Source of the DNA: a virus
Virus record (IMG/VR): IMGVR_UViG_3300048694_000429
Span: 1-25,109 of that record
DNA length: 25,109 nucleotides
Direction: 5' to 3' (one strand)
Of the stretch, positions 20,222 through 24,204 are shown piece by piece. The position numbers and the translations under genes were made by a program. The notes beneath the pieces are model-generated. The model was not told where the DNA came from and did not search any database. It saw nothing but the letters and a program-made list of their open reading frames with translations. The first letter of the stretch is position 1. Each line of letters begins with the position of its first letter.

Positions 20222-20432
20222 TTTTTAATTGCATTGGGTTACCAATTCCAGTAGGGATTGTGTTAAGTCTACATGTGTGCGACGGCACACGCTTAACATA
20301 ATTCATGAAGCCATCCGACGGTGCTGGAAAAAAGTTGGTTCGTAATGTGGAAAACAACTACTCGGTAGACGATACCGTGAGAAGCTAGATGGAGTTCTAG
20401 AACGTTGTTGACATCCTAGTGTAATTAAAAAT
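20222..20432 (+). ncRNA. ORF-free structured stretch, candidate RNA 1
   Basis: No supported gene in ~210 nt between two tRNAs. Nested inverted repeats: TGTTAAG/CTTAACA (20261-20267/20292-20298) enclosing GTGTGC-GACG-GCACAC; AACAAC/GTTGTT (20353-20358/20404-20409) enclosing two hairpins (CGG/CCG at 20363-20365/20375-20377 and CTAGA/TCTAG at 20385-20389/20396-20400), a three-way junction. No known RNA class recognised. Confidence 0.5.
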
Positions 20433-21019: not shown

Positions 21020-21027
21020 AAAAGTAG

Positions 21028-21056
21028 TGTACAGCAATAAAAAAGTATGGTATAAT
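21028..21056 (+). promoter_or_regulatory. Promoter P10 inside tRNA cluster
   Basis: TGTACA, 17 bp, TATAAT preceded by TGG. It starts a third tRNA transcription unit at tRNA-Leu(TAA). Confidence 0.85.
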
Positions 21057-21149: not shown

Positions 21150-21155
21150 AATAAT

Positions 21156-21231
21156 GCACGGTTCGTCTATCGGTTTAGGACACTAGCCTTTCACGTTAGT
21201 AAGACGGGTTCGATTCCCGTACCGTGTACCA
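21156..21231 (+). tRNA. tRNA-Glu(TTC)
   Basis: 76 nt, acceptor GCACGGT/ACCGTGT, loop CTTTCAC, A73, CCA. Confidence 0.94.
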
Positions 21232-21682
21232 GAATTCGACTGGTAATCGAGTAGCGTATTTCTTCCACGCTCTATAAATGGGAAGGTCACGGCAACGGTG
21301 ACTAAGTCTGTTGTGAGTTTGCTGCACTACGACTCGCATAAAAGTGCAGATAGTTTAGACTGTGACTGATAGACAGTTGGTTTTATGAGTAAGTCTCCAT
21401 AATTGACTACTTCACTCTCGCTTAAGAGTGGTTCTCGCAAGGAACTGATTTACCAGATCATAGCACTCTTAGTTGTATTGTTTATGGAAAAATGCAGTGT
21501 CCACCTGCATAATGCACTATCAATGACGTCACTGGTTCGAAACACACGTTACATAGTTGTGCCAAACGAAATTGAGGCTAGCATCTGCAGATGTCCTCAT
21601 ATAAGGTTTGGGCGATAAAAGCAAACGACAATAGGGTTATTGTTGTCCATAACGTAGACAATACAACTAAGAGTAAGAATAT
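21232..21682 (+). ncRNA. 450-nt ORF-free structured stretch, candidate RNA 2
   Basis: No supported gene. Many complementary pairs: GTCAC/GTGAC (21286/21298); AGTCT/AGACT (21305/21357) around CTGCACT/AGTGCAG (21322/21343); CCATAA/TTATGG (21397/21482) around TAAGAGTG/CACTCTTA (21423/21464), itself enclosing GTTC/GAAC and TGAT/ATCA hairpins; the palindrome CATCTGCAGATG (21582-21593) inside TGAGG/CCTCA; ACAATA/TATTGT (21628/21638). The nesting implies a folded RNA. No known class, tRNA or ORF recognised. Confidence 0.55.
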
Positions 21683-21758
21683 GCTTCGTTAGCTCAATCG
21701 GGAGAGCACTACACTGTCACTGTAGAGGTAAGGGGATCGAAACCCCTACGAGGCGCCA
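21683..21758 (+). tRNA. tRNA-Asp(GTC)
   Basis: 76 nt, acceptor GCTTCGT/ACGAGGC, G73 (normal for Asp), loop CTGTCAC, CCA. Confidence 0.94.
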
Positions 21759-21762
21759 AAAT

Positions 21763-21833
21763 CGCGGGGAGTCAGGGTAGAGGAGAGTCTCATAAGCTTT
21801 TCCTAGAAAGTTCGAATCTTTCCCCCGCAACCA
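21763..21833 (+). tRNA. tRNA-Met(CAT), initiator-like
   Basis: 71 nt. Acceptor CGCGGGG/CCCCGCA leaves C1.A72 unpaired, the mark of bacterial initiator tRNA, and the 3' end CCCCGCAACCA equals E. coli tRNA-fMet. Loop CTCATAA. The D region is shortened by ~5 nt and the anticodon stem is weak, lacking the three G:C pairs typical of initiators, so an elongator or degenerate gene remains possible. Confidence 0.75.
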
Positions 21834-21918: not shown

Positions 21919-21924
21919 TATTAA

Positions 21925-22012
21925 GGGTGTTGCCCCCGCCGGCGGACTGTAAATCCGTTACTCTAAGAGGTGGGAAGTTGAGTTCGTGGAGCGTTACCAT
22001 CAACACCCACCA
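21925..22012 (+). tRNA. tRNA-Tyr(GTA), D-arm-less
   Basis: 88 nt. Acceptor GGGTGTT/AACACCC, A73, CCA, anticodon loop CTGTAAA, long variable part. Only 10 nt separate acceptor and anticodon stems, so no normal D-arm fits, and the T-loop reads AGCGTTA instead of TTCRANN. Confidence 0.7.
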
Positions 22013-22016
22013 TATT

Positions 22017-24128: not shown

Positions 24129-24204
24129 CCCGATAAAGCTAATCTAGTGAAAGCGCTGGTCTGAAAAGCCAGAGAGCTTGGTGCGTAACCAAGTGTCGGG
24201 ACCA
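24129..24204 (+). tRNA. tRNA-Phe(GAA), variant T-loop
   Basis: 76 nt, acceptor CCCGATA/TGTCGGG, loop CTGAAAA, T-stem CTTGG/CCAAG but T-loop TGCGTAA instead of TTCRANN; the D-loop lacks the usual GG. Confidence 0.85.

Follow-up and report, generated by a model that had tools for sequence, protein, structure and literature searches.

The window analysed here, the whole 25,109-nt stretch of DNA (IMG/VR virus record IMGVR_UViG_3300048694_000429, 25.1 kb), carries a tRNA array with over 20 members, and inside this array a gap at positions 21232–21682 separates a tRNA-Glu from a tRNA-Asp. ARAGORN and Rfam found neither a tRNA nor an Rfam family in this gap, and among the relatives of RNA-A, the RNA that we describe in its second half, no reading frame is conserved, with only 12 of 47 members containing any fully open frame and these differing in frame and strand, in line with the original prediction of a gene-free stretch in the tRNA cluster. 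Across the whole window, tRNA was the only Rfam 15 family to reach its gathering score. At E ≤ 10, a search of 21150–21760 with the 4227 families of Rfam 15 returned only tRNAs and chance-level scores, with no credible match in the gap; matches to FTX_3 and mir-3804 were at this chance level. ARAGORN called no tmRNA in the window, and the sole fragment matching a tmRNA model at E ≤ 10 was the T-arm of the tRNA-Glu. A tmRNA tag reading of GCAAACGAC, made by eye, was dropped because the relative L072 has GCAAACGAATGA at that place. Downstream of the gap, 21761–21833 and 21924–22013 were recognised by eye as a probable tRNA-Met (CAT) and tRNA-Tyr (GTA), uncalled by ARAGORN and Rfam, and a tRNA at 24129–24201, its anticodon read as GAA (Phe), was called by Rfam and not by ARAGORN.

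The gap as a whole folds to -136 kcal/mol (z -4.65), a value that none of 100 dinucleotide shuffles equalled. This single-sequence signal stems from the second half of the gap (21465–21674), which has a z of -7.03 and was matched by none of 200 shuffles, versus a z of -0.91 for the first half alone (21232–21462), for which 36 of 200 shuffles folded as well.

Relatives of the window were fetched via neighbouring proteins; L073 proved to be almost the same phage, and L068, L069 and L072 were less closely related. Comparison with related sequences indicates that the gap holds two separable predicted RNAs, RNA-B followed by RNA-A (Table 1). In L072 and L251 the order of the two is reversed and the halves are parted by tRNAs, and in L068 a tRNA-Ile is placed between RNA-B and RNA-A; these differing places rule out the single continuous 450-nt RNA that had been envisaged. 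The 91-nt CCATAA/TTATGG domain with a supposed truncated cloverleaf (21397–21487, pairing 21397–21402 with 21482–21487) fails for the same reason: it crosses the border between RNA-B and RNA-A, is not conserved, and represents a false pairing. The TTATGG at 21482–21487 instead belongs to helix P1 of RNA-A, where its partner is the CCATAA at 21647–21652.

Table 1. Features in and around the gap between tRNA-Glu and tRNA-Asp, in window coordinates.
Feature	Position	Strand	Description
RNA-C	20222–20432	+	Non-tRNA module in the second array gap, closed by TTTTTAATTGCA/TGTAATTAAAAA
Promoter-like site	21026–21056	+	TGTACA, 17 nt, TGGTATAAT; pattern and consensus scan; putative activity
tRNA-Glu	21156–21231	+	Directly 5' of RNA-B; ARAGORN, Rfam
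RNA-B	21235–21461	+	About 227 nt; sequence conservation, helices kept by different letters, covariance model of the 3' half
RNA-B 5' hairpin	21236–21250	+	Loop CTGGTAA (21240–21246)
RNA-B TTACCAG	21450–21456	+	Complement of the 5' hairpin loop near the 3' end; proposed pseudoknot closing RNA-B
RNA-A	21465–21674	+	210 nt; covariance model R1, 191.6 bits (the window being one of its 18 training sequences); 61 contigs; covariation; fold z -7.03
P1 5' strand	21465–21487	+	ACTCTTAGTTGTATTGT TTATGG; pairs with 21647–21652 and 21658–21674
P2 hairpin	21492–21510	+	ATGCAG/CTGCAT, then conserved AATGCAC; 4/6 pairs changed on both sides
P3 arm	21516–21557	+	P3a 21516–21519/21554–21557; P3b 21524–21529/21546–21551
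P3 apical loop palindrome TTCGAA	21536–21541	+	Proposed symmetric kissing-loop contact; palindrome of at least 6 nt in all members
P4 arm	21561–21613	+	GCCAAAC/GTTTGGGC; covarying helices 7–9
P4b apical hairpin	21582–21593	+	CATC-TGCA-GATG, itself palindromic
Conserved single-stranded motif TAAAAGCAAACGA	21616–21628	+	Motif used in the 3' pattern search
P5 hairpin	21627–21647	+	GACAATA-GGGT-TATTGTTGTC
P1 3' strand	21647–21674	+	CCATAA, bulge CGTAG, ACAATACAACTAAGAGT
tRNA-Asp	21683–21758	+	Begins 9 nt past the RNA-A end; ARAGORN

RNA-A belongs to a family found in 61 IMG/VR contigs, with members of about 180–230 nt. Two independent motif scans of IMG/VR arrived at this same family: a pattern from the 3' part matched 47 viral stretches, of which 44 were genuine, and a pattern from the 5' part, blind to the 3' pattern, added 17 members. 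A covariance model (R1), built from 18 members without the P4 insertion, confirmed all 61 contigs, with held-out members, including extra-hairpin types, matching at E-values of about 1e-20 to 1e-50, which are rough owing to a short calibration. Exactly one copy was present in each of the 46 records searched whole, including contigs of up to 222 kb.

Outside these contigs, RNA-A matched no Rfam 15 family even at E ≤ 10, and blastn searches with three variants against 50,697 phage records gave either no match or matches at chance level. A pattern scan of GTDB contigs produced 13 matches, all attributable to chance upon inspection of their flanks, and R1 found nothing in T4, in a set of nine jumbo phages or in a further nine IMG/VR records related to the window, where the stricter filters applied to the named records could let a weak relative escape. 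Given these searches, RNA-A is known here only from uncultivated phages. A T4-type Gp23 capsid model matched 4 of the 21 records tried (carriers together with close relatives), so at least some carriers are T4-like. A limited literature search, with most subscription journals and bioRxiv preprints outside it, found no published report of the family.

The architecture of RNA-A consists of a long closing helix (P1) and the branches P2, P3, P4 with P4b, and P5, interspersed with the conserved single strands GGAAAA, AATGCAC, TAAAAGCAAACGA and CCATAAC. The TAAAAGCAAACGA motif is still recognisable in members that were found without it, the version in L251 being TAAAAGCAAACGG. In a MAFFT alignment made without fitting its rows to the structure (A2), 39 of 54 base pairs are changed on both sides and the share of paired cells is 83%, compared to 12–21 pairs and 36–41% of cells when the partners are slid by 1–3 columns. 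The covariation score of 0.399 lies well above the 0.07–0.10 obtained with slid partners and was reached by none of 500 shuffles, although shuffle statistics are inflated by the relatedness of members. All six pairs of P3b show changes on both sides, with 99% of cells paired, as do nine of the ten outer pairs of P1. The structure was drawn from one A2 row, which favours it somewhat, a bias that is minor in view of the size of the gap to the controls and the held-out matches. In a larger alignment of 47 RNA-A sequences, 46 of them distinct (A4, rows fitted to the model), 44 of 54 pairs are changed on both sides. We regard the status of RNA-A as a conserved structured RNA as nearly certain. The original prediction of a functional RNA, perhaps of a new class, is supported for the second half of the gap, in view of the 61-contig family, the strong covariation and the lack of an Rfam match.

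In every member, held-out ones included, the apical segment of P3 contains a run of 6 nt or more that is complementary to itself. All 26 distinct P3 segments of normal length carry such a palindrome (shuffle mean 5.1, maximum 12, in 2000 runs), as do five longer segments; the rate in windows elsewhere in RNA-A members is 11%. The palindromes fall into 11 hexamer types, with TTCGAA in the window and CTGCAG, CGGCCG, TTGCAA, TGATCA, GTGCAC, GTCGAC, GACGTC, TAGCTA, TCTAGA, TGTACA and further ones in other members, and in held-out contigs all 11 distinct P3 loops are palindromic, TGTACA being a new type among them. Since the central four loop bases are unable to pair in one strand, their co-variation points to pairing between two copies. 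Reading this palindrome rule as the signature of a putative symmetric kissing-loop homodimer is well supported by comparative evidence; what the palindromic loops denote is that copies could pair with one another, which is not the same as oligomers forming in the cell. The same palindrome argument has been applied to the L9.3 and L21a kissing loops of OLE and GOLLD, respectively, with fewer palindromes mentioned there (PMC12286853). The P4b loop is also palindromic in about 27 of 47 members (GGCC, TGCA or TGATCA cores), and in the remaining approximately 20 it is GACG, GCAA or others, so that a second symmetric contact would be optional at best and a closed higher-order assembly would not be general.

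RNA-A occurs mostly in same-strand tRNA arrays, often next to a tRNA-Glu, a setting that it shares with GOLLD; in L152, L156 and L183 it lies away from detected tRNAs, and for a small number of members the retrieved sequence contains no tRNA at all. ARAGORN places the end of a tRNA directly at P1 in 17 of 47 members (11 tRNA-Glu, 3 tRNA-Leu, 2 tRNA-Ile and 1 tRNA-Val). The P1 pairing reaches over the CCA and discriminator of the abutting tRNA and covaries where other sequence is found there, and in this outward extension the outer positions 1–8 all lie beyond 500 shuffles. An equal extension is seen in members without an abutting tRNA (L150, L158 and L183).

Upstream of the run formed by tRNA-Leu, tRNA-Glu, RNA-B, RNA-A and tRNA-Asp, the nearest promoter-like site is that at 21026–21056. 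Its pattern has 16 matches in the window against 3.8 expected, a number that none of 100 shuffles reached. A motif of the form TGTACA-N17-(TG)GTATAAT was observed at about ten window sites, 5' of genes and tRNA runs, including 7179, 12828, 16040, 17621, 19920, 20068, 21026 and 24387.

RNA-B is rarer than RNA-A and was found in five lineages (the window with L073, L072, L251, L068 and L069). The stem of its 5' hairpin differs among relatives (TCGA/TCGA, TTGCTG/CAGCAA, TTGTTG/CAACAA or CGTTG/CAGCG) around a loop that is identical in all five, and the proposed pseudoknot of this loop with the 3' end has 7/7 pairs in three relatives and 6 and 4 in the other two. Several further hairpins are kept by different letters, for example one as GTCAC/GTGAC, CTCTC/GAGAG or CGCTC/GAGCG around GGCRACG, and another as CACTCT/AGAGTG, CGTTCT/AGAGCG or TCGCCT/AGGTGA around CGCTTA. 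A pattern scan recovered no member beyond those already known, its matches in L145 and L147 being due to chance, and the RNA-B model, run on 45 records, gave two strong matches and one marginal one (E 0.0014). Comparison across the five lineages argues that this rarer RNA is likewise structured, its single-sequence fold being no better than shuffles.

Other modules were seen in related arrays. Relatives of RNA-C lie directly 5' of RNA-A in L158, L159 and L181; a match of the RNA-C model R3 in L219 (E 1e-6) was rejected, as it coincides with RNA-A and is probably due to nothing more than the closing stem. At about 6046–6180 of L069, the slot of RNA-A after RNA-B is occupied by an element with a P1-like closing stem (CCCTTAATTATGTTGTTTG/CAAACAACATAATTAAGGG) and a different interior, possibly through cassette exchange. 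Around and upstream of RNA-A in L150 and L188, there are repeated modules closed by stems of the CCATATTGAAACACATT...GTGTGTTTCAATATGG type, some with a tRNA-like T arm inside, which may be another RNA family. Phage tmRNA genes (beta_tmRNA and permuted tmRNA models) were detected in L068 (15849–16225), L070 (9091–9442) and L157 (6948–7355, minus strand), and GOLLD RNAs in L169 (2411–2870, minus strand), L160 (7549–8012, minus strand) and L070 (2933–3392), all three enclosing a tRNA.

We consider it probable that RNA-A is a tRNA-operon-encoded, self-associating, trans-acting RNA scaffold, resembling GOLLD and ROOL in setting and mode while constituting a separate family, with RNA-B beside it. 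We infer the transcription, processing, dimer or oligomer formation and scaffold role of RNA-A as follows. It would be transcribed together with the tRNAs from the promoter-like site near 21030, and its ends would be set by the closing P1 helix and by processing or release at the flanking tRNAs. Two copies would then pair via the palindromic P3 loop (TTCGAA in the window), and in members with a P4b palindrome (TGCA in the window) two self-complementary contacts could link monomers into a larger symmetric assembly. By this route RNA-A would form a homo-oligomeric scaffold that works during infection along the lines of GOLLD and ROOL, and RNA-B may be a second, rarer trans-acting RNA, held by the pseudoknot between its loop and 3' end. 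That RNA-A monomers go further and form, via P3 and P4b, closed RNA-only rings or cages which display or store a tRNA, its CCA clamped in P1 where a tRNA abuts, strikes us as distinctly unlikely; if true, this would be a tRNA-carrying RNA particle made from subunits of about 200 nt, with mostly tRNA-Glu as the upstream tRNA.

An alternative that we judge unlikely is that RNA-A works as a monomer or with protein, for instance by inhibiting, or acting as a decoy for, a ribonuclease of the host, RNA polymerase or the ribosome, and that its palindromic loop serves only an occasional or regulatory dimer. The single-stranded GGAAAA, AATGCAC, TAAAAGCAAACGA and CCATAAC do resemble binding sites, and host defences attack phage tRNAs, which would make a decoy among tRNAs plausible. 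This account, however, leaves unexplained why the P3 loop always keeps a palindrome even though the hexamer itself varies over 11 types, and an unsystematic look identified no linked protein gene.

Two further readings relate to the tRNA setting. RNA-A and RNA-B could be cis elements, stem-closed spacers that guide or delay the maturation of neighbouring tRNAs, with P1 including the upstream CCA end; the pairing over discriminator and CCA, covarying beyond 500 shuffles at all of the outer positions 4–8, and the frequent upstream tRNA-Glu would fit, but the interior of RNA-A is far more elaborate than would be required of a spacer, the same P1 extension exists where no tRNA abuts (L150, L158 and L183), and three members (L152, L156 and L183) lie away from detected tRNAs, making this reading very improbable. 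Hardly credible at all is that the gap consists of remnants of lost tRNA genes that fold by chance. Its position in a tRNA array and the Lys, Val and His acceptors, absent from the window, would speak for this; yet these tRNAs are present further downstream in L068 (Lys 9158, His 9379 and Val 9462), in a stretch that would fall past the end of the window. Moreover, cmscan at E ≤ 10 found nothing in the gap that matches a tRNA model, not even as a remnant, a cloverleaf is absent from both RNAs, and RNA-A shows compensatory changes over 46 distinct sequences.

Returning to RNA-A as a self-associating scaffold, its self-pairing loop suggests that the phage may make RNA particles. To our knowledge, natural RNA homo-oligomers are rarely documented. 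The best-known phage homo-oligomeric RNAs, GOLLD and ROOL, are giants that map to tRNA arrays. The widespread RNA-A family is about a third of their size, and its P3 loop, with no fewer than 11 different palindromes across members, is always self-complementary, which would make the role of self-assembling RNAs in phages far easier to test, because a 200-nt RNA is readily transcribed, mutated and imaged, and a palindrome swap is a change in one loop. Our observations also suggest that, beside GOLLD and tmRNA, a range of RNAs that have escaped annotation (RNA-A, RNA-B and RNA-C) is present in the tRNA arrays of phages.

Among known RNAs, GOLLD (RF02032) is, like RNA-A, phage-encoded, located in tRNA arrays and structured, and has symmetric kissing loops with covarying palindromes (PMC12286853). 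It is larger, with a model of 416 positions and many RNAs of >800 nt, in contrast to the approximately 180–230 nt and one conserved self-complementary loop of RNA-A. The model of the conserved GOLLD 3' region had no match in the window at the gathering score, nor in 21150–21760 at E ≤ 10, whereas it does match L070, L160 and L169 as separate elements. Of the 48 related records searched for it, 7 contain GOLLD and 6 of these also carry RNA-A; where both occur they are separate elements. ROOL, which is encoded by phages and prophages close to tRNA islands, forms protein-free assemblies and has kissing loops among its contacts (PMC12286853), is approximately 660 nt long with a structure unlike RNA-A, and no Rfam match to it was obtained in the region at E ≤ 10, its presence in Rfam being taken from PMC12286853. 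The OLE RNA dimer has a symmetric kissing loop varying among GGCC, GAUC and AGCU palindromes (PMC12286853); unlike RNA-A, OLE is bacterial, larger and has protein partners, and it had no Rfam match in the region.

T4 encodes RNA C and RNA D (rnaC and rnaD; species 1 and 2), small stable RNAs that, as with RNA-A, lie beside tRNA genes; they are annotated at 70908–71046 and 71053–71171 (139 and 119 nt), with no homology to RNA-A detected by R1 in the T4 genome. The pRNA of phi29 is a phage RNA of comparable size that oligomerises via loop-loop pairing between two distinct loops complementary to each other, and its gene is close to those for packaging. It had no Rfam match in the region at E ≤ 10, and phi29 is cited as an exception in PMC12286853. 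At the level of sequence, RNA-A shares with the GOLLD, ROOL and OLE type a predicted symmetric kissing loop with palindrome covariation (26/26 segments, 11 types, and 11/11 held-out loops).
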